This document shows, piece after piece, positions 1 through 40,131 of a stretch of DNA of 40,131 bases; the first letter of the stretch is position 1; every line of letters starts with the position of its first letter. Made by a program: the position numbers and the translations under genes. The notes below the pieces were generated by a model. That model was not told the DNA's origin. It made no database searches and saw only the letters and a list, made by a program, of their open reading frames with translations. The DNA comes from a virus: the IMG/VR virus record IMGVR_UViG_3300044527_000242, positions 1 through 40,131 of that record. One strand, written 5' to 3'.

Positions 1-139
1 GTGGTTTCTCCTGTCTCGAGCTCGTGGATGACAAGGCAATGAATGGTGTCTGTCTTGTCCAGTAGCCCGTTAGATTCCAAGTCAAAGATAAGGGTTTTCA
101 TTGTAGATCCTCGGGGATTTCCACCGGGGGCTGACCGCT
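1..139. repeat. Left copy of 139-base terminal redundancy
   Basis: Bases 1-139 match 39993-40131 with one difference (A at 107, C at 40099). The repeat covers the 3' end of the primase-helicase gene and the first codons of the DNA polymerase gene. Because it sits in the middle of the replication block it is best read as the overlap of a circular assembly, not as the packaged direct terminal repeat, which in T7-like phages lies outside the gene set. Confidence 0.9.
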
Positions 140-2965: not shown

Positions 2966-5344
2966 CTAGCCAAAAGTGTAGGGGGCCCGCTCAATTTGAC
3001 AAGGGTCAAAAAAGCCCATTTGAAAAGCAGAAGATTCTCTAATACCGCTATTAGAATTGCTTATGCTGTCGTAAAAAAGGTCTAAATTATTTTTTCTAAA
3101 AACCTTTACAAAAGCGCTTCGAACAACTTTTGTTAACTCATCCATATAATTGGCATGGGAGCCGTAGCAATCGTGAATAGCTACTCCATGTTTGGAAAAC
3201 TCTGAAAAAGACAGATGAACAATCGAGGAGTCCAGCGAATGAATAAAATTGGGTGCCACACTCCCTGACTGCTTTTCGCAATCAACTTTTTTAGGGTCTT
3301 CTTCCAGCAACCGAAAATATCGGTATTTCCCGGCCAAGCACGTTTTTACCTCAACCCCTTTAGCCTTCATGTAGGGCTGGACAACAGGAAACCCGCTAGG
3401 GGAAACCCACGAAAGATTTTGATTGGCTTTAGCCGCTGGTCGCGCAACCGAGGCCATCCAAGTCATGCACTCAGACGCTTTGGGCAAAAGCTCCTCCACA
3501 ATTTGCTGAACAGTTGTCGCGTAATAGCGTGTCATCCCCCAGAATTGTTTGATTTCTGCTCGAGGGTCAATTTTAGCTAAACGAAGCCTTACCCACTCCT
3601 CGGCGTTGCGCTGGATGCTGTAGGTAGTCCCACCGTACGGGATTGTCATCACGGCTGGTTTGGTAAGCGAGCGGTCTGGTTGAAGCTGTAGCCACAACCG
3701 GGCTACATCAGTATTGTCGGCTCTGCACTTTTCAATAAAAGAGTCGCAAACTAAGGTATATACATCGTAGAGCCGGGGTGTTTCGGTCAAGTTTGTTAAG
3801 CGTGCGCTGTTTTCATCCCCGGTAAGAAGAGACAAAACTTGAAGACCTGATGAGGTGCAGTCTACAGTTATGGGGAGGCGGCACTTGTAGTTGTCGATTT
3901 GAGCGTGGTTGCGAAATTCTATACACCACCGAAGAAACTGCCATTTGTTCTTTGCTTCTTGCCACCATCTGCATCCATACGGGTCGTTGGCGCTCGCTAC
4001 TATAACGCTAATATGGTGGTCCACCCACTCGCACCGCTCTGAATGGCTAATTTTATCTTTGCCAAAAAGGTTGGCTCCAAAGATTTGAAACCAGAAGTAA
4101 CCCCGGTCTGTAAGGACCTCGCCATCCGCAAACTCTAAAAGGGCCCGAGCGTAATCGCTACCCTGAGGGTTTAGATGCCCCGGGAGGTAATAACAACGCC
4201 CACGAAAATCCAACTGTACAGGAAAGTAAATTTGCTCCCCTAAAAACTTTTTGGCCGTGTACAGGGTTTGAGCCAGCGCCACCCTAGCCGCTTTCATGCG
4301 TACGTTGGCTGTATGCACGTAAGCCGCCCGCTTGTTGTAGGCCGACCAAGCCGGGTCCTTACGAGGCGCACCGTTTGGGCGCTGAGGAAGAGCGAGCGTG
4401 CGATTAAGAGGGATGTCTCCGCCATCGTCCAAGCCACGCTCCCAATAATCGTACATTACGTCAAAAAGCTCCCGGCTTATTTTCCAAGGGGTTTCTTGAA
4501 GGCGGTTCACGCATTGGACTACGGCGGGCATATCAGCGGAAAGCAAAAGGCTAGTTTGGCGTTTGTTCCGAGACTTGACCAAAGTATGGTCAAACGTGTC
4601 TGAGCCGTAGCCGCCTCCCCTTATCATCCCCGGGGTCCATGCCACAGGCTTTTCCACCATTGGCATAAACCGAGGCGTCAACACCTCCCCGCTTTCGACG
4701 TAATTGTTGATCCATGCCATGCACTCGTCGGTCGCAACTATGACGTTTGTATACCGCTTTGGGGCGTCAAACCGCTTGTGCACCCGGACTAACCCGGTGT
4801 GTTTCATAAAAAGGTCCAGACAAGCGGCGCCTACGTGAAGCCGTTGCTTCCGCGTCCATAGGTCCATCTTGACCCCGTTGGCTGTCATGGTTTGGCGGGC
4901 GCACTTGCGACGGAACTCGTAGCCTTTCTTGGTTTTGTTTAGCCTTCTTTGTACCGCCACCCCAAGGCTACCTTTAACCCTTTTGAACCTTCGCATACGC
5001 GTTTCGTCTTCCACCGATTCCCCAATCCTTACACACAAAGCAGTCATCGGCTTTTGTGTTGATACGGAACTTAAGATTACCTTGGAAGCGAGCACGGCCA
5101 CAACTTCCGAGGGAAGAAGTTTAAGATAGGGTACAGCGGAATGATGGACGCCGGGAGTTCTGCCCGCCTTTGCCACAAACTCGTCAATCGCGGTAGCAAC
5201 TCTCTCGATGCTTCCCGAAAGAAGTCTACGCACAGGAGCCGAGATAAGCTCATCCCCCCGGGAAATACCGTTGGCACGAACTTTTTGAGCCGTGAGCTTT
5301 GCGCTCAACAGCATCTCCTTGTTTAGCTCTGCTTGCGTGTGCAA
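2966..5344 (-). CDS. Single-subunit DNA-directed RNA polymerase (T7 gp1-like)
   Basis: Phage-encoded polymerase that transcribes middle and late genes from phage-specific promoters. It has 792 aa, shorter than the 883 of T7. The catalytic set can be placed: motif A with Asp495 (VDCTSSGLQ), motif B with Lys562 and Tyr570 (KPAVMTIPYGG, eight residues apart as in T7 Lys631/Tyr639), a FIHSLDSS element, and motif C with Asp725 (AIHDCYG). The shorter N-terminal region suggests a reduced promoter-binding domain and a diverged promoter sequence. It lies downstream of the integrase block and upstream of the SSB, as in integrase-bearing marine T7-like phages. Confidence 0.97.
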   Translation of the reverse strand: MHTQAELNKEMLLSAKLTAQKVRANGISRGDELISAPVRRLLSGSIERVATAIDEFVAKAGRTPGVHHSAVPYLKLLPSEVVAVLASKVILSSVSTQKPMTALCVRIGESVEDETRMRRFKRVKGSLGVAVQRRLNKTKKGYEFRRKCARQTMTANGVKMDLWTRKQRLHVGAACLDLFMKHTGLVRVHKRFDAPKRYTNVIVATDECMAWINNYVESGEVLTPRFMPMVEKPVAWTPGMIRGGGYGSDTFDHTLVKSRNKRQTSLLLSADMPAVVQCVNRLQETPWKISRELFDVMYDYWERGLDDGGDIPLNRTLALPQRPNGAPRKDPAWSAYNKRAAYVHTANVRMKAARVALAQTLYTAKKFLGEQIYFPVQLDFRGRCYYLPGHLNPQGSDYARALLEFADGEVLTDRGYFWFQIFGANLFGKDKISHSERCEWVDHHISVIVASANDPYGCRWWQEAKNKWQFLRWCIEFRNHAQIDNYKCRLPITVDCTSSGLQVLSLLTGDENSARLTNLTETPRLYDVYTLVCDSFIEKCRADNTDVARLWLQLQPDRSLTKPAVMTIPYGGTTYSIQRNAEEWVRLRLAKIDPRAEIKQFWGMTRYYATTVQQIVEELLPKASECMTWMASVARPAAKANQNLSWVSPSGFPVVQPYMKAKGVEVKTCLAGKYRYFRLLEEDPKKVDCEKQSGSVAPNFIHSLDSSIVHLSFSEFSKHGVAIHDCYGSHANYMDELTKVVRSAFVKVFRKNNLDLFYDSISNSNSGIRESSAFQMGFFDPCQIERAPYTFG

Positions 5345-6545: not shown

Positions 6546-6716
6546 TTAGCTCTTTTCGATTTCGCAGTCGGTTGGGAGATAGCTATCGAGGGGAAGGTTC
6601 TCCCCCACAAAGGCGATCTGTTTCCCGGTGGTTTTGTCGGTCAACGTCCAGCCGCCTTCGGCCCGCCCGATGACAACGACCTTCTTTTTCTCAGTTGATT
6701 GCTTTTGCGTACTCAT
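6546..6716 (-). CDS. Small hypothetical protein overlapping integrase end
   Basis: A 56-aa protein starting at ATG 6716, with GGAGG a few bases upstream inside the integrase gene; a longer frame from 6740 lacks this support. It has a basic N-terminus (QKQSTEKKKVVVIGR) and then a compact beta-rich region (GGWTLTDKTTGKQIAF). The overlap with the integrase is 26 bases. Possible roles include a recombination directionality factor, but only position suggests this. Confidence 0.6.
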   Translation of the reverse strand: MSTQKQSTEKKKVVVIGRAEGGWTLTDKTTGKQIAFVGENLPLDSYLPTDCEIEKS

Positions 6717-7701
6717 ACTCCTCCAGTTTCTTTGTCGCATCCATCAGGTTTTGAGGTAGCAAATGGGCGTACCTCAGGGTCACTTGGATGCTTTTGTGAC
6801 CCAAAAACTCTTTTACAGTTAACAGGGGTACCCCGGCTTGAACCAACCGAGACGCACACGTATGCCGCAATGCGTGCGGAACAAACTGTGCGTCATCCCC
6901 CAACCGCATCATGTTTTTCATCCTGTTCCAAACCTTGTTAAACGAGCTTTGGTTCACCGTGTCAAACGGCCCCTTTCCGTCTCTGGGTAGCGACGCCAAC
7001 AACTCTTGGGCGCGCTTAGTCAAAGGTACCGTACGAGCTTTCCCGCTTTTGGTGTCCCAAAAAGTAGCCTTATCGTTGTTTAGGTCTTTCCACTCAAAAC
7101 TAAGCGCTTCGCCTACTCGGGCCCCGGTGTCGATCAGGAAGACGCACAGCTTGGCATAAAACCCAAACCCAAGGTGCTCCAAAGTTTTAAGCATAAGAGT
7201 TTCCTCTTCTTTACTCAGAAAACGAATCCGGCCCTCATATTCCTTCTTTCGGTGCATTGCAGGAACCTTTGTGATCCAATCGCGCTCAAGAGCAAATCGA
7301 AGCATCTTGGAAAGCGCCGCCAGCTTTCGGTTAATCGTGGCGTTTGAATTTCCCTCGTTCTCTAGTATTTGGACGTACTTATCCACGTCCTCCGCGTTCA
7401 GGTTACTCACGTAATCTTCGGCCCCAAAATGCCTCACCGCCCGGGCTGAATTGATAAAAGCCGTGTGCTCGCCCTTACTGCCGTGCCAATATCTTGAATG
7501 GGTAGCCCGACGAAGCTCCTCCCAAGTTCTCCCCGTGGTTACGCTGTCTCCACGATCAATAGATTCACCACGTAATAGCTTGGCTTGGCTTTCCATAAGC
7601 CAAGCATTGGCCTCCGCTTCGGTAGCAAACTGCCTCCGTATGCGTTGTCCGTCTGTAATAAGACTAGCTTGGTAGCCGTTTCCGCGTTGGTTTACTGGCA
7701 T
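6691..7701 (-). CDS. int: Tyrosine integrase
   Basis: Site-specific recombinase expected to integrate the phage into the host chromosome at an att site. It has 336 aa. A short N-terminal arm-binding-like region (about 1-45) is followed by a SAM-like core-binding domain (about 55-150) and a catalytic domain with all key residues: Arg195 (TGARVGEAL), Lys218 (TKSGKARTVPL), His276 and Arg279 (HALRHTCASRL), His302 (LGHKS) and nucleophile Tyr311 (TLRYAHL). GAGGAG lies ten bases upstream of the start. It overlaps the small genes on both sides. No attP could be assigned next to it with confidence. Confidence 0.96.
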   Translation of the reverse strand: MPVNQRGNGYQASLITDGQRIRRQFATEAEANAWLMESQAKLLRGESIDRGDSVTTGRTWEELRRATHSRYWHGSKGEHTAFINSARAVRHFGAEDYVSNLNAEDVDKYVQILENEGNSNATINRKLAALSKMLRFALERDWITKVPAMHRKKEYEGRIRFLSKEEETLMLKTLEHLGFGFYAKLCVFLIDTGARVGEALSFEWKDLNNDKATFWDTKSGKARTVPLTKRAQELLASLPRDGKGPFDTVNQSSFNKVWNRMKNMMRLGDDAQFVPHALRHTCASRLVQAGVPLLTVKEFLGHKSIQVTLRYAHLLPQNLMDATKKLEEYEYAKAIN

Positions 7702-7951: not shown

Positions 7952-8157
7952 TTTCTGCCCCCCATTGCAAACTCGCTCCCAAGAACTTTGCCAGCCACCA
8001 GCGAGGCATCCACGTAATACGGCCAGCAAATCCCGCAAATAATTCCAACGTCTTTGGTCTCAGCGTGACTTACTACTACTCCATTCCAAGGAGTAAAAAC
8101 AACCTTGTCGCAAAGCTCACAGCGCCGTGGCCCTTTGTTGGGTATCTCGCCTTCCAT
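7948..8157 (-). CDS. Small zinc-finger-like protein
   Basis: A 69-aa protein with two Cys-x2-Cys pairs (RRCELCDKVV and IICGICWPYY) spaced about 24 residues apart, a plausible single zinc-binding knuckle. It is the first gene of the integrase block, directly downstream of the operator-like repeats. Its TGA overlaps the next ATG. Function unknown; nucleic-acid or protein binding is likely. Confidence 0.65.
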   Translation of the reverse strand: MEGEIPNKGPRRCELCDKVVFTPWNGVVVSHAETKDVGIICGICWPYYVDASLVAGKVLGSEFAMGGRK

Positions 8158-8211
8158 GTTTCAATAGTTGCACGGTGCTGTTAGTAGACGCAAATAGAAT
8201 TTTCTGCAAAA

Positions 8212-8223
8212 TAACACGTATTA
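8212..8223. promoter_or_regulatory. Operator-like motif, copy 1
   Basis: TAACACGTATTA, related to the two TTAACACGTAA copies at 8285-8295 and 8306-8316 and lying between them and the start of the integrase block. On the minus strand it reads TAATACGTGTTA in an AT-rich stretch. It may be a repressor or activator site; part of a phage promoter is an alternative. Confidence 0.4.
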
Positions 8224-8284
8224 GATATTTTAATTTTCCTTTTTAGCTTTTCTACTTTGTGGTTTAGATTTCAGGTTAGGGCGG

Positions 8285-8316
8285 TTAACACGTAAAGTTG
8301 CGGAGTTAACACGTAA
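8285..8316. promoter_or_regulatory. Tandem operator-like motifs, copies 2 and 3
   Basis: Two exact TTAACACGTAA copies at 8285-8295 and 8306-8316, with centres 21 bases apart (two helical turns), each preceded by GCGG. This spacing would place bound dimers on the same DNA face. They lie upstream of the zinc-finger, ribbon-helix-helix and integrase genes and are candidates for the lysis/lysogeny or early-to-middle switch. Confidence 0.5.
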
Positions 8317-8499
8317 TGGATGATCATAGTGGGCGACCCCCGGGGCCCTCCTGCTCCGCCCGGGGCCCCCTCCCGGTCAACTCCCCATTCTTCCGGGGTC
8401 GATGCGGCGGGCCCGGTAAAGATGCCCGCAAGAATCGCGCGAGGATGCCCAAGGTGGGGCGATCACGGGCCCGGTAGGGTAAGGAGTGCGGGCAATAAA

Positions 8500-8532
8500 A
8501 AAGGCCCCTAGGATTTGAACCTAGGAGCCTTT
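8500..8532 (-). terminator. Strong hairpin terminator with T-loop-like loop
   Basis: A 13-base-pair stem (8500-8512 with 8520-8532, one G-T wobble) closes a seven-base loop. On the minus strand the loop reads TTCAAAT and the stem is followed by T residues, so this is a good intrinsic terminator for the GC-rich operon ending at 8556. The A/T-rich flank suggests it might work in both directions. GGTTCAAATCC at its tip matches the tRNA T-arm box B exactly, but no tRNA body surrounds it. Confidence 0.8.
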
Positions 8533-8555
8533 CCCGGTGTTCCCGGTGGGTCGGT

Positions 8556-8645
8556 TTACTTTTTCAGAGCGAAAAAGAATAGGATGAACAGGGCTAAGAG
8601 AATGCCCAGCCCGATATGGTGGTTCACCTTGTCAATGCTTTTCAT
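8556..8645 (-). CDS. 29-residue single-span membrane peptide
   Basis: A very short gene. The peptide has a polar N-terminus (MKSIDKVNHH), one hydrophobic span at about residues 11-26 rich in Leu, Ile and Phe, and a Lys-Lys end. Its ATG lies inside the last codons of the GP88 gene (14-base overlap) with GGAG upstream. It is the last gene before the terminator at 8500-8532. It may be a small envelope-acting toxin-like or holin-like peptide, but nothing beyond topology supports a role. Confidence 0.6.
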   Translation of the reverse strand: MKSIDKVNHHIGLGILLALFILFFFALKK

Positions 8646-9261
8646 AGGCGACATTCTCCGTTCCCTTGTCCCAGCACGCCCTACACGCGGCGCATTTATT
8701 CCCTTGCGCCCGGGAAGGGCACGTTGCCCCCGAGGTTGTCACGGTCGAGGTGACTAGCCCAAGGCGCCGCGCCAACTCCACCGGGGCGGGCCCATCCACC
8801 ATGTGGGCCGATAGGCGCACCGTTAGGTTTCCCGGGATGGTTCCGCCCATCTCGAGAAACTTTGAAACGATGGCATATTCCCGGGTAGGTAGCCAATGGC
8901 GCACGTCCGGGGTGAGGTTGCAAACCTTCACAATCTGCCGCAAATGCGCGACGTTCTGAAGGTCGCCCGAATCATGCCAGCGGAAAAAGCGGTTGCCTTC
9001 CGCGTTGATTAAAAACGCGATGGCCTCCGCCCATTCCGGGTGACGCATGGAGCGCAACCGTTTCGCCAGCGCGGCCCTTACTGCCGGGAACAAGTAGCGG
9101 TTCCGCAGGGCGTAGCATTTCGCGCATACGCTCCCGGCGATGGCCCGCAACTTGCTCCCGGTCTTGCAGAGGGTCGCGGGTATGGAGTAAGCAGGGCACG
9201 GCATTTTGGACGGATAGGAGAATCCGCCCCCGGTCAACTGTTCGGCTTGGGCCAGGGTCAT
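8632..9261 (-). CDS. GP88-family cysteine-rich phage protein
   Basis: A 209-aa protein starting at ATG 9261, supported by the GGAGG cassette shared with other junctions of this operon; an upstream frame from 9324 has no such support. It resembles the 'gene product 88' family known from actinobacteriophages and plasmids, whose function is unknown. The cysteines are striking: MPC, TLC, VCAKC in the first third, and CPS, KCAACRAC near the end. They could hold zinc or an iron-sulfur cluster. A LPTREYAIV segment lies between. Its stop overlaps the start of a tiny membrane peptide. Confidence 0.75.
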   Translation of the reverse strand: MTLAQAEQLTGGGFSYPSKMPCPAYSIPATLCKTGSKLRAIAGSVCAKCYALRNRYLFPAVRAALAKRLRSMRHPEWAEAIAFLINAEGNRFFRWHDSGDLQNVAHLRQIVKVCNLTPDVRHWLPTREYAIVSKFLEMGGTIPGNLTVRLSAHMVDGPAPVELARRLGLVTSTVTTSGATCPSRAQGNKCAACRACWDKGTENVAYEKH

Positions 9262-9446
9262 TTCCGGGCCTCCCCGACAATTTCCCAACCGTCGATTCCA
9301 AAGTGGGCCCATCCTTCCCGCCAATCGTCCCCGGTGTAAGGTATAAAATCGGGGCCGTGGTCCTCGTTTAGAATCGAAACAAGTTCGACAAGAGACATGG
9401 TGAAAACCTTGTCCGCTTGGGTGTCTTTTATGGTGTAGTATTGCAT
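9258..9446 (-). CDS. Small hypothetical protein ending in EARK
   Basis: A 62-aa acidic protein, probable start at ATG 9446 (MQYYTIKDTQ) since the frame further upstream is low-complexity. No strong Shine-Dalgarno is visible, but a GC-rich hairpin (9460-9490) lies directly upstream. A helix (SLVELVSILNED) is followed by a Trp-rich end (WREGWAHFGIDGWEIV). The last codons and the stop form the repeated GGAGGCCCGGAAATGA cassette that starts the GP88 gene. Confidence 0.65.
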   Translation of the reverse strand: MQYYTIKDTQADKVFTMSLVELVSILNEDHGPDFIPYTGDDWREGWAHFGIDGWEIVGEARK

Positions 9447-9459
9447 TTTTACTGGGTGA

Positions 9460-9490
9460 GCCCGGGAAACGGTTGGAACGCTCCCCGGGC
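9460..9490. promoter_or_regulatory. GC-rich hairpin before small gene
   Basis: Inverted repeat GCCCGGG at 9460-9466 and CCCGGGC at 9484-9490 with a 17-base spacer, just 14 bases before the ATG at 9446. It could attenuate transcription or mask translation of the downstream genes. Similar GGGCCCGGG-type sequences recur in the non-coding parts of this island. Confidence 0.45.
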
Positions 9491-9531
9491 CCTTGTTGGT
9501 GTGGTGTGGTGTGCTTTCCTTGTTGGTGAGT

Positions 9532-10425
9532 TTAGCTAGCGAGGGCGAGCTCCCGGGCGGTCGTGTGGATGTCCGCGTCACCCTGTTTGCAGGCCGCGTG
9601 GAGCTCGCCGAGACGGCCCCGGTTGGCGGTTTCAGCTATATTCCAGAGAGTCCGATTGAGGCGGATGCTGGCATCAATGTTGCGAAGGGCCCGGATACCC
9701 CGGCGAGCCCATCCCACCGTTCCCGAGGTGAAACTCTCCTGTGCCCGGTTGAAGGTGCGCCATAGGTCGCGGCCCTCGTCTTCCCGGCGGCGGGTGATGT
9801 GGGCGGCGGTTTCGGTGAAGTAGGAGCGGCGCAGGGCCTCAGCCTTACCCCACCGGGCGATTCCGGCGAGGTCAAAGAATTGGCCGTGTTCGGCGGTCTC
9901 GAGCTCCCGGGCCATCCAAGCGGTGACAGACTGATCCAAGCGCGGCAGGGCCTCGCGGATAGCTTGGGCCCCCTCGAGGATGCGAGCAGACAACTCGCCC
10001 CGGTCGCCTACGTGGCGCACGCGGATGGCGGTTGCCGTGGCCCCAATGACAACTCCGTTTGAGCACGCGAACCTGTAAAGGCCCGCGAGCAGGGTGAACG
10101 CGGCGGTGCCGTCGTTCGCGTTCCGCAGAATGATTTGCGGCTTATACTCCCCGCCCCGGTTGATAAAGTCCGGGTGATCCAGCCTCAGAGCGTGGGCGAT
10201 GTAGGGCGCACGTTCCGGGGTGCGATGGCGGCGAGCGGTGATGGAATCAATTTGATACCCCGCCTCTGCGAGCGGTTGCAGGGCGTCCGCCGTGCTGATC
10301 CCGGCAAACCGGGCCGACGTGGTGCCGCTGAATCCCTCCCGGGTGGCGAGGTAAGGCCGCTCCTCAAAAAAGCGGCGCATGGTCTCCATAGTGGCGTTGC
10401 TGATGGTGTCGTTGTGTGTGTTCAT
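9532..10425 (-). CDS. DUF932 family protein
   Basis: A 297-aa protein of the DUF932 phage/plasmid-like family (unknown biochemical role, common on plasmids and phages). Supporting features are the RFACSNGVVIG segment near residue 115-125, the RVRHVGD segment, and the C-terminal LWRTFNRAQESFTSG (about residue 220), all typical of the family. AAAGGAG lies about 15 bases upstream of the ATG. It is the largest gene of the GC-rich operon. Neighbouring tiny membrane proteins and GP88 suggest an accessory or host-takeover module rather than virion structure. Confidence 0.8.
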   Translation of the reverse strand: MNTHNDTISNATMETMRRFFEERPYLATREGFSGTTSARFAGISTADALQPLAEAGYQIDSITARRHRTPERAPYIAHALRLDHPDFINRGGEYKPQIILRNANDGTAAFTLLAGLYRFACSNGVVIGATATAIRVRHVGDRGELSARILEGAQAIREALPRLDQSVTAWMARELETAEHGQFFDLAGIARWGKAEALRRSYFTETAAHITRRREDEGRDLWRTFNRAQESFTSGTVGWARRGIRALRNIDASIRLNRTLWNIAETANRGRLGELHAACKQGDADIHTTARELALAS

Positions 10426-10448
10426 AGTGTGTAGTGTGGTTACTCCTT

Positions 10449-10547
10449 TTATTTTCTGTTTATGGTGCCCGCGAGAATCCCGAGAAGGATTCCCGAGGCG
10501 AAGACTGTCCCGATAGCTAAGGCGAGGTCGGCGGGTTCAATGATCAT
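10449..10547 (-). CDS. 32-residue membrane peptide
   Basis: Short gene whose ATG overlaps the previous stop (ATGA) and which is preceded by the repeated GGAGG cassette. The peptide starts MIIEPADLALAIG, has a hydrophobic glycine-rich span at about residues 8-28, and ends in NRK. A single membrane span with Lys/Arg at the C-terminus is predicted. Function unknown; it is one of three such peptides in this operon. Confidence 0.6.
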   Translation of the reverse strand: MIIEPADLALAIGTVFASGILLGILAGTINRK

Positions 10548-10741
10548 TTCCGGGCCTCCTCTAGCGGGGTCGAGGTGACGTTTAGAAGACGCCCGCTCTC
10601 GTCCGTCCAGTAGGAAACGGCATACTGCCGCCCCTCAGGGCATAGGAGGATTTCCCCCCGGGTGATCCGGGGCCCTTGGCTATCCGCCCGGTGTAAAACG
10701 TCAAACTTCTTTAGGATTTTCCAGCCCCCTGAAAAGCTCAT
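10544..10741 (-). CDS. Small hypothetical protein ending in EARK
   Basis: A 65-aa protein, probably a small beta-rich domain (RGEILLCPEGRQYAVSYW, then ESGRLLNVTSTP). Both its start and its stop are ATGA junctions carrying the same 16-base cassette, so expression is coupled to both neighbours. No family recognised. Confidence 0.65.
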   Translation of the reverse strand: MSFSGGWKILKKFDVLHRADSQGPRITRGEILLCPEGRQYAVSYWTDESGRLLNVTSTPLEEARK

Positions 10742-10833
10742 TTCCGGGCCTCCGCTAGCCTCTCGAGGGCCACTAGGGCCCCCGCGAGGGTGAGAAGAGC
10801 GACAAGGGCGGCGCGAGTCTGTGCCGGGGTCAT
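10738..10833 (-). CDS. 31-residue membrane peptide
   Basis: Short gene with AGGAG nine bases upstream of ATG 10833; the start overlaps the previous stop (ATGA). The peptide (MTPAQTRAALVALLTLAG and onwards) has a hydrophobic Ala/Leu span at about residues 7-23 and ends AEARK in the repeated cassette. One membrane span is predicted. Function unknown. Confidence 0.6.
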   Translation of the reverse strand: MTPAQTRAALVALLTLAGALVALERLAEARK

Positions 10834-11072
10834 CGGCTCATCTCCTGAACGTGGGCCTCTCGGGCCTCGCGTTTAAGGATGGCAATTTCGTCTTGAAAGT
10901 TGGCGATTTCAAAAAGCCGCTTGGCGAGCGGGTGGTCGTGGTCGCCCTTTCCGATAAGGCCCGACAAGGTCGCGCTTCGCTTCTCTAAAAGCTTTTCGAC
11001 GCGCTCGAGGGCTCGAATTTCACCGTGAAAGATCATCATACGATTGTTTGCGAGCTCTTCGGTTGCGGTCAT
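10830..11072 (-). CDS. Small helical coiled-coil protein
   Basis: An 80-aa protein starting at ATG 11072 (MTATEELANN), four bases overlapping the previous stop and preceded by GGAGG. It is almost wholly charged helix (EIRALERVEKLLEKRSATL, then FQDEIAILKREAREAHV), probably a helical hairpin or dimeric coiled coil. No family recognised. Confidence 0.65.
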   Translation of the reverse strand: MTATEELANNRMMIFHGEIRALERVEKLLEKRSATLSGLIGKGDHDHPLAKRLFEIANFQDEIAILKREAREAHVQEMSR

Positions 11073-11395
11073 TTCTGAATCCTCCCGGTGCGCGAGTTGT
11101 AGTAGAGGCAATTCCGGCCCTCGAGGCGGTTCAATGTCTGCTCAATCTGCTGGCGCATCTTTTCGACGTCCCGGGCGATTTGGGAGAGTTGGTCGGCTTT
11201 CAGGTCGAGCATCGCGTGAAGGTCGCGCAACTCAACGAAAGCCTCCTCAGCGGTGAATTGAAGCGCGGTGATCACTTGGGCCGGGTCAATCTCCGGGGCG
11301 GTGGTGGTGTCCTGTTCGCTTGCGGCGATAATGTCCGCGAGCGTCTTGATAGCTTGGGCCGTATCAATTTCGGCACGTGGTGTGGTGTGTTCCAT
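11069..11395 (-). CDS. Coiled-coil protein, first gene of the GC-rich operon
   Basis: A 108-aa protein. Residues 1-40 are Thr/Ala-rich. Residues about 50-95 form a long heptad-patterned helix (FVELRDLHAMLDLKADQLSQ and beyond), ending in a short basic tail. It is the first gene of the operon after the repeat-rich non-coding tract. No clear Shine-Dalgarno precedes the ATG, and the first codons are CA-rich. Function unknown. Confidence 0.65.
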   Translation of the reverse strand: MEHTTPRAEIDTAQAIKTLADIIAASEQDTTTAPEIDPAQVITALQFTAEEAFVELRDLHAMLDLKADQLSQIARDVEKMRQQIEQTLNRLEGRNCLYYNSRTGRIQK

Positions 11396-11460
11396 AGGGC
11401 GAGCCTAAGCGGGCCCGGGATGGTCTCAATCTATTTTGCGCGTTGTCGCGGTGTTAGCAG

Positions 11461-11647
11461 GGCCGCTTATGGCGGGATTAGGTCGGCTTATCATAGTCAA
11501 TAGGCGGGCCCGGGACGGCGTTAGGGCGGCTTAGGGCTATAACCCCGGGAAGGGCGCGGGCGGCTTAAAGGGTGCGCCGCGAGCGTGCCCTAGGTCGGCT
11601 TAGGGTGTGCTTAGGCTATAACCCCGGGATGGTGTGAGGGCGGCTGA
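11461..11647. repeat. Decameric repeat array (GGNCGGCTTA)
   Basis: Copies of GGNCGGCTTA or close variants on the plus strand at 11481-11490, 11524-11533, 11558-11567, 11593-11602 and 11638-11647 (last with one change), plus a GGCCGCTTA at 11461-11469. Two further units, TTAGGGCTATAACCCCGGGA (11531-11550) and TTAGGCTATAACCCCGGGA (11611-11629), are interleaved 80 bases apart. Such an array may bind an origin protein, the terminase, or a regulator. Confidence 0.6.
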
Positions 11648-11902
11648 TGGTGTGGGCATCGCAAACCGCGCAACTAGGGATTAAAAATTCAAGGTCGAAA
11701 AAGTCGGTTGTGGTCGCGCTCGGGGCCGATAGGAGGGCGGGCAATCTCCGCCGCGACGCCGACGACAAGCGAAAAAGCGCGGACGCGTAGGGCGATAGAT
11801 TCCTAGTCTGTAGGCTGAGACGACGAGTCAACGGCTTAGGCGGTCGGTGTGGCGCGAGCGGTGGCGCGGTCGGTGTCATAGTGGGCCCGGGGCGGCGTCG
11901 AT

Positions 11903-11928
11903 CCCGGCTTTTCGCGGTCGGAGCCGGG
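11903..11928. promoter_or_regulatory. GC-rich hairpin
   Basis: CCCGGCT at 11903-11909 pairs with AGCCGGG at 11922-11928 around a 12-base loop, about 30 bases downstream (minus strand) of the candidate promoter. It may be an attenuator, a processing site or part of a packaging signal. Confidence 0.4.
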
Positions 11929-11957
11929 GGTATGGGGGGATCGCGGAAATCGCCACC

Positions 11958-11986
11958 GTTATATACCCCTTCGAAATTTTCTACAA
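11958..11986 (-). promoter_or_regulatory. Candidate sigma70-type early promoter
   Basis: On the minus strand TTGTAG (-35, 11981-11986, 3 of 6 consensus bases) is followed after 17 bases by TATAAC (-10, 11958-11963, 5 of 6). It lies in an AT-rich pocket inside a GC-rich tract and reads toward the operon starting at 11395. T7-like phages need host-type promoters upstream of their first genes, so the place is right, but the -35 match is weak. Confidence 0.4.
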
Positions 11987-12017
11987 AAATTTAGGGACCC
12001 CCTTACAAAGCTACTGA

Positions 12018-12042
12018 CCTACTAGGGGTCGAACCTAATAGG
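12018..12042 (-). other. T-loop-like hairpin, tRNA T-arm mimic or att-site candidate
   Basis: A nine-pair stem (12018-12026 with 12034-12042, one G-T wobble) with a seven-base loop. On the minus strand the loop reads TTCGACC within GGTTCGACCCC, matching the tRNA T-arm consensus GGTTCRANYCC at nearly all positions. No complementary acceptor or D/anticodon arms were found at the right distance, so it is not a complete tRNA. It may be a tRNA 3'-part carried as attP, or simply a hairpin. Confidence 0.4.
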
Positions 12043-12108
12043 CCAGCGGAGGAACACACACACATAGGAAGAGGGCAACCGAAAGCCTTCTTCGTATATC
12101 CCGTCTTA

Positions 12109-12399
12109 TTATGAGGGGTAATTGATCCCGGTCCTGTCTGAAGAGCCCCCTGAGGACCCCCCAAAGCTATCCGGGGAAATAACCAAGCTGGCCCTATTCC
12201 TGACAGAGCGACCACGAGGGGCACGCCTCGGGGAACTAGGAGCTGGCTGAGAAACCTTGCCCTGCTCTTGCACAGGGGCGGCAGAGGGAGCGGAAGGGGC
12301 CAAAGCCAAAGCCTGTTTAGCGGCCATGTCTTCCTTAGCTTTTGCCTCAGCTTTCATCCTGACAGGCATCAGCCCTGAACCTACAAAGGAGCTACACAT
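12109..12399 (-). CDS. Small Ala/Pro/Ser-rich protein with gp7.3-like ends
   Basis: A 96-aa protein starting MCSS, with a middle rich in Ala, Pro and Ser and an end reading RNRASLVISPDSFG and then TGINYPS. A Met-Cys start and a C-terminal basic/Leu/hydrophobic motif followed by Gly-Ile/Leu-Asn resemble T7 gp6.7 and gp7.3 (small virion proteins), and also the window's own protein at 36281-36511. It stands alone between two structured non-coding tracts. There is no convincing Shine-Dalgarno, so existence is likely but not certain. Confidence 0.5.
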   Translation of the reverse strand: MCSSFVGSGLMPVRMKAEAKAKEDMAAKQALALAPSAPSAAPVQEQGKVSQPAPSSPRRAPRGRSVRNRASLVISPDSFGGSSGGSSDRTGINYPS

Positions 12400-12800
12400 A
12401 TCAAAGGTGGATAGATAATGGTGGATAATAAGTCAATCAACTTCTGACTTACCAAAGGTCAACCAAAAGCCTACCTTGTACCAAGGATTGTTTTGCGGGG
12501 CTTTGCTTTATCTACAGCCTACCAATTTCACCATCCACCAAGTGATATGCCTTTGACCCTCCTTCGGCTGTCGCCTCAGTCGGGTTCCATCCGAACTGTC
12601 TCAATGTTGTCTAATTTTAACTCCTGTACCTTTAAGATATGTATTATCTTATAGGGGTTCTAAGCAACCAGTTCCCATAAAGCGAACTGTAACTTAGGTA
12701 AAAGCTGAAGGATTGATTTTACCAATTTGGAGTCGTTTTTGTCGAGCTTTTTCTTTCAGACTTGCTCTAACTCAATCCCAATCAATCAAATAATTTTTCT
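12400..12800. other. Densely structured non-coding tract
   Basis: About 400 bases with no credible gene between the muramidase stop and the small gene at 12109-12399. It is AT-richer than the island and contains at least seven perfect inverted repeats: 12419-12426/12533-12540, 12429-12435/12445-12451, 12466-12471/12499-12504, 12474-12478/12482-12486, 12563-12567/12591-12595, 12633-12639/12645-12651, 12669-12674/12684-12689 and 12697-12703/12717-12723. It may be a 3' untranslated region with processing signals, a non-coding RNA or part of the genome end. Confidence 0.55.
12419..12540 (-). ncRNA. Candidate structured RNA of about 122 nt
   Basis: On the minus strand an eight-base-pair closing stem (TGGTGGAT with ATCCACCA), extendable inward with wobbles to about 13 pairs, encloses two nested arms. 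One arm pairs AAAGCC with GGCTTT and contains the hairpin CCTTG-GTA-CAAGG. The other is TAAGTCA/TGACTTA with a nine-base loop. TGGTGAAATTGGTAG near the 5' end resembles a tRNA-Leu D-arm, but the rest does not fit a tRNA. No known RNA family is recognised. Confidence 0.35.
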
Positions 12801-13808
12801 TTAAGGCTTTCTCATTGCCACCTGAACAGGAGGCGTCGTAATTGGCTGGGACATAGCAACAAACTCATTGCGTTCGCGGTCGTACCTATTGATCAGTCCT
12901 TTGCCGAACAAATCCCACCAATTACCTGTGACGGTTCGCCCGTTGATCACAACGGAATCTGTTTTATTGCCGTAGACTTGCTTGTCGTACTGCTCACGAA
13001 CCATGCGGAGTCTGTCTTGAAATTCGGTCGGGGACATGGAGTTAATTGCGTTAACCGTTTCGTTGGACAGCTTGCCCGATTTGGTGATAGGGGCCCCGGC
13101 AACGGAGTTAAGGATAGCCTGAGCTCCGCCTTCGCCTCTCATGTGAGCGATGGACAAAACGGCCCCCTGTACGCCGGGGTCGGTAAACTTATCGGCCCCT
13201 ACGGTTTTAGCCCGTTGCCTGAGAAGGGTGCCCACAAGCTCTCGGGTTTGGGCGGAGTCCACCCCGTACTGCTTGACGGTGGTTTGGATTTTGCCAAAGG
13301 CGGGGTGGTCGGCCCGGAAGCCAAAGTACTCCCGCTTGCCTGATTGCACGGCGGTCTTACCTTCGCTTTTCATCACGCGGTCGATCACGGTAGAGGCAAT
13401 GCCCATCTCTCCCTCAACGGCCCGTGGAGTGCCCGGGGGCTTTGGAATGGTCTGGTTGGAGGGCGCCGGGGCTTGGGTAGGGGCGTTGGTCTGTCTCATG
13501 TTGTCCTTCAGGTCCACCCGAACGGTGGCTTGGTTGGTGCCCGAGGGGGCTACGGATAGACGAGGTGAGGGGAGATTGAGAGAGCTCAAATCAAGCATCA
13601 ATTCCCCGTTAGTTAAAGTTGGTGCTGAAACAGGCGCATTAGTGGCCTGATTTGAAGCAGAAATGGCGCTAGAAGGGGCGTTTGTGGGCGACCCGCTGTC
13701 CTCACCCTCCGAAACGCCAAAAGCCCCTACAACGGGCTTTAATCGCTTAGGGGGCACAACAAAAGAGTCTCTAGGGGATTGGAAAAGGGTGTATCTGTTG
13801 GTACTCAT
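12801..13808 (-). CDS. Probable peptidoglycan hydrolase (muramidase-like endolysin)
   Basis: A 335-aa protein. Residues 1-135 are low-complexity, with repeated NAP-x-x-AP patterns, probably a linker or virion anchor. From about 140 it resembles GH108-type phage muramidases: VIDRVMKSEGK with candidate catalytic Glu149, then an AQAILNS and SGKLSNETVNAINSM region like the lysozyme 'xxGxxxxxTxxAL' motif, and a late NWWDLFGKGLINRYDRE. Its start overlaps the large terminase stop (ATGA), a usual place for late lysis genes. It could be a virion-associated lysin instead of the free endolysin. Confidence 0.5.
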   Translation of the reverse strand: MSTNRYTLFQSPRDSFVVPPKRLKPVVGAFGVSEGEDSGSPTNAPSSAISASNQATNAPVSAPTLTNGELMLDLSSLNLPSPRLSVAPSGTNQATVRVDLKDNMRQTNAPTQAPAPSNQTIPKPPGTPRAVEGEMGIASTVIDRVMKSEGKTAVQSGKREYFGFRADHPAFGKIQTTVKQYGVDSAQTRELVGTLLRQRAKTVGADKFTDPGVQGAVLSIAHMRGEGGAQAILNSVAGAPITKSGKLSNETVNAINSMSPTEFQDRLRMVREQYDKQVYGNKTDSVVINGRTVTGNWWDLFGKGLINRYDRERNEFVAMSQPITTPPVQVAMRKP

Positions 13809-15463
13809 GCGGTTATCCAGTTCTTTTTATCTGATTTCCTTCCAATAGCGCTCTCCATGAACTTGTCGAGTTCGATCTGAAGAAGGTCTTCTTGGTGGTC
13901 ACGATGGGCTTGTTGGACATCTCTAGCCATAGCTTCGACCCAATAGGCCACGGCTATGGAGAGGGCATCCAGCCTGTCGTCGTGCGCTAGGGCTCCCTTG
14001 TCCCGGGTAAGGCGGGGGAGTTGGTAGAACAGGCGATAGCGCTCGGCTGTTTCACCTAGCTCGTCGGCTACCGACTTAAAGTCCTTTTCAATTACCCGGG
14101 GGTCCACGATCAGCCGATGCTGGTTCATCACGGGCTCGAGGGTGTCGATGATCCGCTTCTCCTTTTGAAGGCTGTGCTTGACCTCCTCTATTGTACACGG
14201 GTGGATACGTCCGAACACGGGCTTTAGAAGCTCCCCGAACATCCCGTCCCCAAAGTTGGCTTCGTAGACAACGTAGTTGACATCATGCTCCTTTGCGGCC
14301 CGGGCCAGCGCTTCAAGGGTGGTGTTGTCGTAGCCTGAGCGGAAGCCGCCGATGTCGGTGAGGAACAGTTGCCCGTGGAGGCACTTGACGATGGCATAGG
14401 CTGTCTCGTCCTTGCCCCGCCCTGAGGGGTCAATAGCCATGACCGTCCCCTGATACTCGGCAAAGCTATCGGAGACTTGCATAGGGCCGTGGTAGGCGTC
14501 CCCGTCGAAGCCGACGTTGGGGATGTCGTTGAGGCGCTTTGTAGGGTCGTTGCACCACACGACGAACGATGGGCCCCGCTTGTTGTCCAGCGCCATAACC
14601 ACAAGGTCGTTGATCTTAAGCGGATAGCGGTCTTGGTCGCTGATCCGGGGGTCCAACATGAACTGAAGGGCAAAACCTGAGCGCCCATAGGACGCCTCAC
14701 GGAACATGAGGTCTTCTTCGGTAAAGCGGGTGGGCTCCGTGGAGCTCCCGGCAGTCCCGTTATTCTGAGCCACAAAGGGCGCAAGGCGTACGCCATAACG
14801 TACGCGTTGCTCTTCGCTTGGGATACGCACGGGCCATATCCGTGCCATGTATCCACGGCGCTCGAGCTTTTCGTAAATAGAGTTTTCGGTCTGCGGCGTT
14901 CCAAGAAACACAATGCGGCCTTCGGGCTTGACCACCGCGTCAAACTCCTTGACTGCCTCAGCCAGCTTGATTCGCATAAGCTCGGTTTGGGAGTTGCCTG
15001 AAGTCTCAATATCGTCGGCAATAATCAGGTCGGCGCGGCTTCCCGTGATTTGCCCCGTGATACCCACAGACTTGACCGAGGGGGCGTGTGAGGCTGGCGC
15101 TGGGCCAACGTCAAAGCTCTCCTTGGAATTGCGCTGTTCCTCCCGTGGCTTGAGGTGCTGAAGGATCGGTATTTCGTTGATCAGGCGTAGCGTGAAGGTG
15201 GTGAAGTCGCTAGAGCGGTTCTTGGAGGCCGACACCACTAGCACGTTAAGGGTTGGGTTGAGAAGAAGCCGATGGCACACGAAGGCTGACGTAATCCAGC
15301 TTTTGCCGATGCCTCGGAACGCCTCGATGATCTGACGGTTTGGTCCGTGCTCGAGACGCTCGGCAATGTCGTATTGGATCGGCGTGGGATCGGGAAGGTT
15401 TAGGTGCTTCCAAACAACGTACAGAAAGTTTCTGAAATCCCGTAGCCGGGGGTCTAGTTGCAT
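13805..15463 (-). CDS. Terminase large subunit (T7 gp19-like)
   Basis: DNA packaging motor with ATPase and nuclease domains; docks on the portal and cuts concatemers together with the small subunit. It has 552 aa (T7 gp19 is 586). Walker A is FRGIGKS with Lys54, Walker B is LIIADD at 146-151, and a coupling-type motif LGTPQTENS is at 188-195. The RNase H-like nuclease domain begins with VMAIDPSGRGKDETA, Asp345 being the first metal ligand, and ends with HDDRLDALSIAVAYW. A stem-loop (15475-15492) lies just upstream of its start. Confidence 0.96.
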   Translation of the reverse strand: MQLDPRLRDFRNFLYVVWKHLNLPDPTPIQYDIAERLEHGPNRQIIEAFRGIGKSWITSAFVCHRLLLNPTLNVLVVSASKNRSSDFTTFTLRLINEIPILQHLKPREEQRNSKESFDVGPAPASHAPSVKSVGITGQITGSRADLIIADDIETSGNSQTELMRIKLAEAVKEFDAVVKPEGRIVFLGTPQTENSIYEKLERRGYMARIWPVRIPSEEQRVRYGVRLAPFVAQNNGTAGSSTEPTRFTEEDLMFREASYGRSGFALQFMLDPRISDQDRYPLKINDLVVMALDNKRGPSFVVWCNDPTKRLNDIPNVGFDGDAYHGPMQVSDSFAEYQGTVMAIDPSGRGKDETAYAIVKCLHGQLFLTDIGGFRSGYDNTTLEALARAAKEHDVNYVVYEANFGDGMFGELLKPVFGRIHPCTIEEVKHSLQKEKRIIDTLEPVMNQHRLIVDPRVIEKDFKSVADELGETAERYRLFYQLPRLTRDKGALAHDDRLDALSIAVAYWVEAMARDVQQAHRDHQEDLLQIELDKFMESAIGRKSDKKNWITA

Positions 15464-30581: not shown

Positions 30582-30613
30582 ATCTACAGGTACTTACTAC
30601 AGAAAAAGAGAAA

Positions 30614-30707
30614 CCCTGCAAGCCATTAGTTTGATTAGACTCGGGGAAGGAAGGCGGGGAAAAACCCCTTTATATATTCCCGAGAACCAAGACTAAGACT
30701 TGCAGGG
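30614..30707. promoter_or_regulatory. Nested inverted repeats after the capsid gene
   Basis: Three nested inverted repeats in 94 bases: CCCTGCAAG/CTTGCAGGG (30614-30622, 30699-30707), CTCGGG/CCCGAG (30640-30645, 30679-30684) and GGGG-AAAAA-CCCC (30656-30668). The position equals that of the T-phi terminator after T7 gene 10. On the minus strand no long T-run follows, so partial termination, RNase III-type processing, or mRNA 3'-end protection of the capsid message are all possible. Confidence 0.6.
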
Positions 30708-30723
30708 CTCCCTAAGACTTTAA

Positions 30724-38204: not shown

Positions 38205-40093
38205 TAGTGTGTTTCGGCCCAATTAGGGCCTATTCTGTATTCGCCGTCCAAAGGACAACGAAAGTTGAAGGAGCGTCCAGCCGCTCGGATGGATTCAACG
38301 CATACCTTCCCGACCTCTTCGGCTATGTCAGCCCGGGCCTCAATTTGCATCTCATCGTGGATATGTGCCACGAGTGCATAATCGGGGCCGAACTTGTAGC
38401 CGAGCTTGTCCATAGCCACCACAAAGTGGATGGTCGCCATCTTCATAACCAGCGCACCCGCTGATTGAAGAAGAGTGTTCAAAGCCGCGTGTTGACTACG
38501 TATCGGCAGTTGGCGCCCGTCGAGACCGTTGAGGTGGCCCTTTGACCGCACAGCCCTCTCAACTTCTTCACGTAGGCGTTTAAGGGCAGGGGTTTTGTTG
38601 AGGAACTCTTGCTTGATCCTCCGCCCTTCGTCTTGCCCTTTGCCGATGATGTTGCCGATCTTTTCGTCACCCGCGCCGTATAAAAATGCGTAGATGAACG
38701 TCTTGGCATTGTCTCTTGTTGGTAGTCCAGCGGCCTTCTGGTTGACCGTGTGGATGTCGCCTTTGGTGAGCTCGTTGGCGTAGGCCCCGTCATCGAAGCG
38801 AGCCATGAAGTGGGCGAGACAGCGAAGCTCCAACCCTGAAGCATCACATCCAACCAGCTTTCTTTCAGGCGGTGCAATAAATAGTTCACGACACTCCTTT
38901 CCGTATTCGCTCCCCACCCGGGGAACTTGGGCCATGTTCGGTTTTGAATGGGTGCATCGGCCCGTGACGGCGCCATTCGTTGTGACTCTGCCGTGGATGC
39001 GACCATCTTCCTTGGTCATCTTCATCCACGCCTCCTTGCCCTCGGCAAGTTGGCCGATCCGCTTTTGGATCAGGAGATATTCGAGGAGGGGTTTGGCCTC
39101 TGCATAGCCCAGCTTTGCAAGAGCCGAGAGCACCGCTTCGTCAACCTTGGGCCTCCCGTCAGGAGTGTATTCAGTCGGCTTCCATCCGTACTTTTTGATG
39201 AAGCGTTCTGCAATTTCCTCCCGGCTTCCGGGGTTGAATGGGATTTCTTTTTCTTTCGCTTTCCCATCGGTGATCTTAGCCAGCGCTACCTTTTGGGTTG
39301 TCTTCTTGGCCTTGGCCCAAGCCTTGGCGGCTACGGTGGCCTCTGCCTTTGTATTGTAAGTCTTGCCCTCAAACTCATAAGTGCAAGTCTTCATCGTCTC
39401 CACGGTCGGGCTAAACACCCTACGCATCTCGCTCTCAAGCTCGATACGCCGCTTGGCAAGGGTCACGTAAAGCCCGTTGGCTTTCTCCTTGTCAAACAGG
39501 ATGCCGTGGCGCTCCTGAAGCATGATGATCCCGGCAAAGCCCTGCTCAAGAGAGATAGCCTTGGTTGAGTAGTTCTTCTGGGTGATCATCCGATAGAGCT
39601 TGGCTGTGACTGCCACGTCCTGAACGCAGTAGTCCTCCATGCTCGGGGACCAAACCGAGAAGTCGCCATCGACCTCCTTGAAGTCGCCCTTGAGCATCCC
39701 GATACGATGCCCCCACGCCTTCAGGCTATGGGAGCCAATCAGGTTCCTCGGAAAATCGGGGCGGCTGTTGATCTTTCCGAAGTCGATCTCCTTGAGGTCA
39801 GGCCATATCAGGCGGGTGCACACGATGGTGTCCACAACCTGAGACTTGGGCGCCCTGCCGTAGAGCTTGTCTATAACGGGGAGGTCGAAGCCAATAATGT
39901 TGTGTCCAACAATGCAAGCGTCCGGGCCAGCCTCAAGAAGGCGATTGACGCCCTCCTCAACTGACTTCCCCGTAGGCTGATGGTTGTAGCGGGTGGTTTC
40001 TCCTGTCTCGAGCTCGTGGATGACAAGGCAATGAATGGTGTCTGTCTTGTCCAGTAGCCCGTTAGATTCCAAGTCAAAGATAAGGGTTTTCAT
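38204..40093 (-). CDS. DNA polymerase, family A with 3'-5' exonuclease (T7 gp5-like)
   Basis: A 629-aa replicative polymerase, shorter than T7 gp5 (704 aa). The exonuclease domain starts with IFDLESNGL (Asp7, Glu9). Polymerase motif A is GCDASGLELRCLAHF with Asp417, motif B is RDNAKTFIYAFLYGAG, and motif C is HIHDEM with His579, Asp580 and Glu581. Whether it has a thioredoxin-binding insertion is unclear; the shorter length suggests a reduced one. Its ATG overlaps the primase-helicase stop, and the first codons are duplicated in the 139-base redundancy. Confidence 0.97.
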   Translation of the reverse strand: MKTLIFDLESNGLLDKTDTIHCLVIHELETGETTRYNHQPTGKSVEEGVNRLLEAGPDACIVGHNIIGFDLPVIDKLYGRAPKSQVVDTIVCTRLIWPDLKEIDFGKINSRPDFPRNLIGSHSLKAWGHRIGMLKGDFKEVDGDFSVWSPSMEDYCVQDVAVTAKLYRMITQKNYSTKAISLEQGFAGIIMLQERHGILFDKEKANGLYVTLAKRRIELESEMRRVFSPTVETMKTCTYEFEGKTYNTKAEATVAAKAWAKAKKTTQKVALAKITDGKAKEKEIPFNPGSREEIAERFIKKYGWKPTEYTPDGRPKVDEAVLSALAKLGYAEAKPLLEYLLIQKRIGQLAEGKEAWMKMTKEDGRIHGRVTTNGAVTGRCTHSKPNMAQVPRVGSEYGKECRELFIAPPERKLVGCDASGLELRCLAHFMARFDDGAYANELTKGDIHTVNQKAAGLPTRDNAKTFIYAFLYGAGDEKIGNIIGKGQDEGRRIKQEFLNKTPALKRLREEVERAVRSKGHLNGLDGRQLPIRSQHAALNTLLQSAGALVMKMATIHFVVAMDKLGYKFGPDYALVAHIHDEMQIEARADIAEEVGKVCVESIRAAGRSFNFRCPLDGEYRIGPNWAETH

Positions 40094-40131
40094 TGTAGCT
40101 CCTCGGGGATTTCCACCGGGGGCTGACCGCT
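39993..40131. repeat. Right copy of 139-base terminal redundancy
   Basis: Second copy of the redundancy at 1-139, differing only at 40099. The variable base lies in the Shine-Dalgarno region of the DNA polymerase gene. On the minus strand this copy reads GAGGAG before the ATG, while the left copy reads GAGGAT. It also changes primase-helicase residue 531 from Asp (left) to Glu (right). Confidence 0.9.

Follow-up and report, generated by a model that had tools for sequence, protein, structure and literature searches.

On balance, the region at the right end of the genome analysed here (the window: 40131 bases, the whole virus record, of a T7-like podovirus with integrase) probably gives a host-polymerase-driven structured non-coding RNA or leader. 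Read from the minus strand, this T7-like right end would be a transcription module complete in itself: host RNA polymerase would start at a sigma-70 promoter (12716-12745), and the product would be a structured non-coding RNA or leader with a conserved part (12531-12655, termed R1) followed by a closed domain ending with CCACCA (12419). In the window and in its nearest relative, L004, transcription would continue across a small interchangeable gene, and in all lineages the RNA would reach hairpin H1 and the T-loop-capped hairpin H2 just before the terminal repeat; H1 and H2 may stabilise, process or end the RNA. Comparison of the related genomes demonstrated a promoter footprint, conservation above third codon positions, and maintained H1 and H2 hairpins. 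The original prediction of a structured RNA in the tract 12419-12723 held in a modified form (minus strand, footprinted sigma-70 promoter, core 12531-12655); covariation inside the 122-nt element named in that prediction was almost absent.

The ends of the window (1-139 and 39993-40131) were identical in 138 of 139 positions (99.3%), and, since they repeat each other, the genome is taken as complete and circularly permuted, of ~39.99 kb; the record is classed as linear despite this end repeat. PHROG and Pfam matches gave a T7-like gene order on the minus strand: DNA polymerase, exonuclease, connector, capsid, tail proteins, internal virion proteins and tail fibre; terminase large subunit (13805-15463); a 335-aa gene adjoining the terminase (12801-13808; no family, lysin-like by eye); integrase (6691-7701), single-subunit RNA polymerase (2966-5344) and primase-helicase (early region). 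In minus-strand order, the hairpin tract 12419-12723 stands after the lysin-like gene and before the early region. Annotated phages found through the terminase matched that of the window by about 60% at most. In IMG/VR, L002 and L003 were the same virus as the window; terminase identity to the window of the other records: 97% (L004); 93% (L005, L007); 85% (L008, L009); 79% (L010). The tract element was no longer seen in L010, no relative was obtained from bacterial genomes searched for a prophage with the RNA polymerase, and the comparison of the tract rests on three or four lineages.

The promoter (minus strand, 12716-12745; TCGACA-18 nt-TAAAAT, extended -10; -35 at 12745-12740, -10 at 12721-12716) showed 10 of 12 matches and was the best on the minus strand of 8000-13800. 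The best promoter of L004, L005 and L008 was located at the syntenic place after the lysin-like gene, always with a spacer of 18 nt, and scores of 10-11 of 12 were obtained across the four lineages. In the aligned promoters the invariant letters were mainly those of the -35 and -10 boxes and the spacer diverged; transcription from this place would be expected. An operator palindrome for this promoter was rejected, its distance to the -10 box being variable by lineage and that to R1 fixed; the palindrome 12633-12651, T7/T3-like in look, was rejected as a phage-polymerase promoter because no second minus-strand copy was found. In another T7-like group (L015, L018, L021) a sigma-70-like promoter is, by eye, seemingly present between terminase and cut motif and followed, just before that motif, by a closed, conserved non-coding stretch, CCAGGAACA...TGTTCCTGG, also noted by eye.

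R1 (minus strand, 12531-12655) is non-coding, begins with the hairpin 12633-12651 (TAAGATA/TATCTTA) and overlaps the 122-nt element only partly. Its identity to L004 was 90-98% over most of the length vs 75.5% for the third codon positions of TerL; the identity of 12584-12643 to L009 was 78% vs 44.7%. Judged from these two comparisons, R1 is more conserved than terminase third codon positions. A covariance model of R1 matched only the window, L004, L008 and L009 among 77 loci, L005 gave a weak syntenic trace (E 0.013 in 751 bases) recognisable mainly by position, and pattern scans of wider collections returned only the known contigs; the R1-type element is apparently new and confined to a small clade. 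Covariation inside R1 appears slight: two-sided changes were found in 3 of 14 predicted pairs in the few lineages at hand, and the hairpin 12633-12651 showed one compensatory change along with one-sided changes. Folding of the transcripts gave z of −2.6 (window), −5.1 (L004), −1.8 (L005) and −1.1 to −1.3 (L008/L009), the folds of L005, L008 and L009 being weak. A conserved small peptide was rejected because the frame read by eye in L009 has a stop in the window, and the core therefore does not seem to encode a conserved peptide.

The tract 12419-12723 is non-coding, as predicted, with no ORF of at least 60 aa inside it. Its hairpin density had been described as well above that elsewhere, which was confirmed only where spacers are short and arms reach 6-7 bases or more, not for 5-base arms: the tract contains 4 perfect local inverted repeats whose arms are at least 6 long and whose spacers are at most 15, vs 0.9 ± 1.0 in shuffles (a count reached by 2% of shuffles and 1% of genome tiles); those with arms of at least 5 numbered 6 vs 4.0 (21% of shuffles), which is no enrichment. 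An 8-bp stem with a spacer of up to 130 was present in 41% of shuffles, so that the long-range stem alone is expected by chance. Folding was better than that of shuffled sequence: 305 nt, z −2.75 (0 of 100 shuffles); 122 nt, z −2.1 (10 of 200); the tract is not the most structured place of the window, z elsewhere being down to −7.8. The hairpins are real and their enrichment is modest (~four-fold, arms of at least 6); by itself the hairpin and fold evidence would be a weak finding, and it is comparison that lifts the site above chance. A reading of the region as nothing special, in which an AT-rich gap between genes of a GC-rich genome has hairpins by chance and owes its conservation to descent or to recent exchange, agrees with the chance level of the arms of at least 5 and of the long 8-bp stem and with a fold z unremarkable within the window, but is very improbable in view of the promoter footprint and of two comparisons in which conservation exceeded that of third codon positions. 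The strongest fold signals of the window were at 2202-2247, a 21-bp hairpin (minus strand) within an endonuclease I-like reading frame (1819-2454), and at 30601-30720 (minus strand), a strong hairpin (z −7.8) directly downstream of the major capsid gene; the terminator Tphi of T7 is located downstream of the major capsid gene.

In the 122-nt closed element (minus strand, 12419-12540) the outer stem TGGTGGAT/ATCCACCA (12419-12426 with 12533-12540) surrounds hairpins 12474-12486 and 12439-12471. The stem was present exactly as claimed, and its extension to 13 pairs with wobbles was obtained on the minus strand but not on the plus strand. In L004 the outer 8-bp stem was unchanged and the interior longer, with four of the five pairs of the wobble extension broken; L008 and L009 keep 6 bp of the outer stem, TGGTGG/CCACCA, and TGGTGG...CCACCA surrounds a closed domain of variable length across the lineages. 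As the outer stem is invariant, its pairing is neither supported nor refuted; covariation in the element as a whole was almost absent, and there was none in this stem. The 5' hairpin CAGTTC...GAACTG (minus strand, 12669-12689) was kept in L004 only. The enclosed tRNA-Leu D-arm-like string, TGGTGAAATTGGTAGGC (minus strand), was present but restricted to the window and L004, being absent from L005, L008 and L009. ARAGORN indicated no tRNA gene in the window, L002, L004, L005, L008, L009 and L010, and tRNA or tmRNA identity was rejected on this ground. An Rfam search of both strands gave no family match and no score above a family cut-off (best: bxd_5, 17.6 bits vs 50 needed).

Between R1 and the end hairpins the window has a small ORF of 96 aa (minus strand, 12109-12399; no known family), in place of which an unrelated 191-aa ORF was found in L004. 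There is no ORF of at least 45 aa between the place of R1 and H1 in L005, and apparently none in L008 and L009, where R1 is kept close to the end hairpins and no cargo ORF was seen between R1 and H1. The region could be no more than the 5' UTR of an accessory gene cassette made up of promoter, leader, cargo gene and hairpin, and the leader structure would then tune cargo translation in cis; such a cassette agrees with the ORFs that follow in the window and L004 and with the promoter and end hairpins bracketing them. It is rather unlikely, because the promoter, R1 (in L008 and L009), H1 and H2 persist without cargo, and a leader that stays conserved although the cargoes are unrelated points to selection acting on the leader. 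Three small genes of the window (minus strand, 10757, 10563 and 9273) share one ribosome-site/start string, GGAGGCCCGGAAATGA, at their starts.

The end hairpins of the putative host-polymerase RNA, H1 (minus strand, 12068-12093) and H2 (minus strand, 12013-12047; 14 bp, capped with the tRNA T-loop signature G-TTCGACC-C), are outside the tract originally predicted, 50-130 bp before the predicted terminase cut. The structure of H1 was kept with changed sequence in L004, L005, L008 and L009. In the H2 orthologues (L004, L005, L008/L009) 12 of 12 inner stem pairs were kept with many compensatory changes; some of the changes between L004 and the window are inflated, since in the alignment by loop these two are one pair out of register. 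The pairs of both hairpins were counted on hand alignments; MAFFT misplaces the loops. Folding of the H1 and H2 region gave z of −4.1 to −5.4 in five sequences. On these alignments H1 and H2 clearly covary and are the best covarying structure of the locus; no classical U-tract follows H2.

Downstream of the terminase, the T7-like relatives examined share a widely conserved motif, AAAAATCYGAR-GGGTA, ~25 bases, then TTCCCCCC; in T7, and by annotation in LUZ100, it flanks the point at which the terminal repeat starts. The T7-type junction motif AAAAATCTGAG...TTCCCCC was found in the window at 11925-11990 (minus strand), outside the tract originally predicted, and, since the motif is shared with T7 and LUZ100, the terminase cut and terminal-repeat start are expected at ~11951-11963. 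Of the alternative suggestion, a terminal recognition structure, the neighbourhood was right (the right end of the genome), but the cut motif is about 450 bp further on, the tract being located about 450-760 bp before the predicted cut. At 11483-11513 contigs L002 and L131 of another assembly of the same virus end and begin with 31 bases in common, a break that would fit a terminal repeat of ~450 bp and may mark its far end. A GC-rich non-coding tract at 11400-11930 contains recurring short motifs, e.g., CCCGGGGTTATAGCC and TAAGCCG(C/A)CC; a tract of similar look was seen in L008.

The hairpins could alternatively act as DNA, inverted repeats by the concatemer junction that assist the terminase or the replication machinery when the terminal repeat is duplicated and cut. 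Concatemer intermediates with hairpin ends are known for T7 and would fit such a function, as would the position of H1 and H2 50-130 bp upstream of the end of the cut motif and the inverted repeat found within about 130 bp of this motif in many T7-like relatives, including T7. By analogy, a DNA role in end processing is possible for H1 and H2; for the region it is distinctly unlikely, as the tract is about 450-760 bp from the cut, many relatives have no repeat better than shuffles, and neither the promoter nor the sequence-specific conservation of R1 is explained. We infer that RNA rather than DNA is the selected form.

The loop of H2 consists of 7 nt, TTCNANN closed by G-C, which is the tRNA T-loop signature. 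Three of the four longest perfect minus-strand hairpins carry G-TTCNANN-C: 12013-12047 (H2), 9458-9492 and 8497-8535, the last with a T run after it; all three bear the signature on stems of at least 12 bp. No T-loop-signature hairpin with a stem of at least 10 was found in shuffled genomes, no T-loop hairpin at other terminase loci or in five complete T7-like genomes, and none at later loci except two of the same virus. H2 and 8497-8535 were rejected as attachment sites: the arms are those of self-complementary hairpins, not of a tRNA 3' end, and hairpins of this type are present at three places. The three hairpins resemble the tRNA top half (acceptor/T-arm) in having G-TTCNANN-C on stems of at least 12 bp, but differ from it by lack of a tRNA body and of an encoded CCA end, and ARAGORN found no tRNA. 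It is a long shot that this clade of T7-like phages uses hairpins mimicking the tRNA top half as repeated RNA signals, one of them closing a non-coding RNA that the host polymerase makes at the genome end; phage transcripts would in this way be acted on by host tRNA enzymes, e.g., RNase P or T-loop modifying enzymes, or by elongation factor Tu.

The arrangement is similar to the right end of T7 (terminase gene 19, phiOR, gene 19.5, terminal repeat) in its position after the terminase and before the repeat, in a promoter reading toward the end and in an identical cut motif; in T7 the promoter is one of the phage polymerase, whereas that of the window is of host sigma-70 type and is accompanied by a conserved non-coding core and a T-loop hairpin. 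In LUZ100, a temperate-like Pseudomonas relative of T7, a promoter and terminators were mapped between the terminase and the 244-bp terminal repeat (PMC10134795). It shares with the window the T7-like order with integrase, but its right-end promoter phi8 is phage-specific, its right-end locus gave no match to the R1 model, and no T-loop hairpin was found in it. Phage-encoded small RNAs and leaders are likewise promoter-driven, non-coding, folded and located in intergenic gaps; unlike them, the element of the window matches no Rfam family. The open papers searched described no relevant non-coding RNA for the right end of T7-like phages.

T7-like phages are treated as poor in non-coding RNA, and accounts of their right end usually deal with packaging only. 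If the present reading is true, the host polymerase would make a dedicated RNA at this end, possibly tied to an integrase-bearing lifestyle; any regulatory role would most likely be that of a leader or small RNA that the host polymerase makes in the absence of the phage enzyme (early, prophage or concatemer state). With the recurring T-loop hairpins it would be simple to test whether tRNA-processing enzymes are exploited by phage transcripts.
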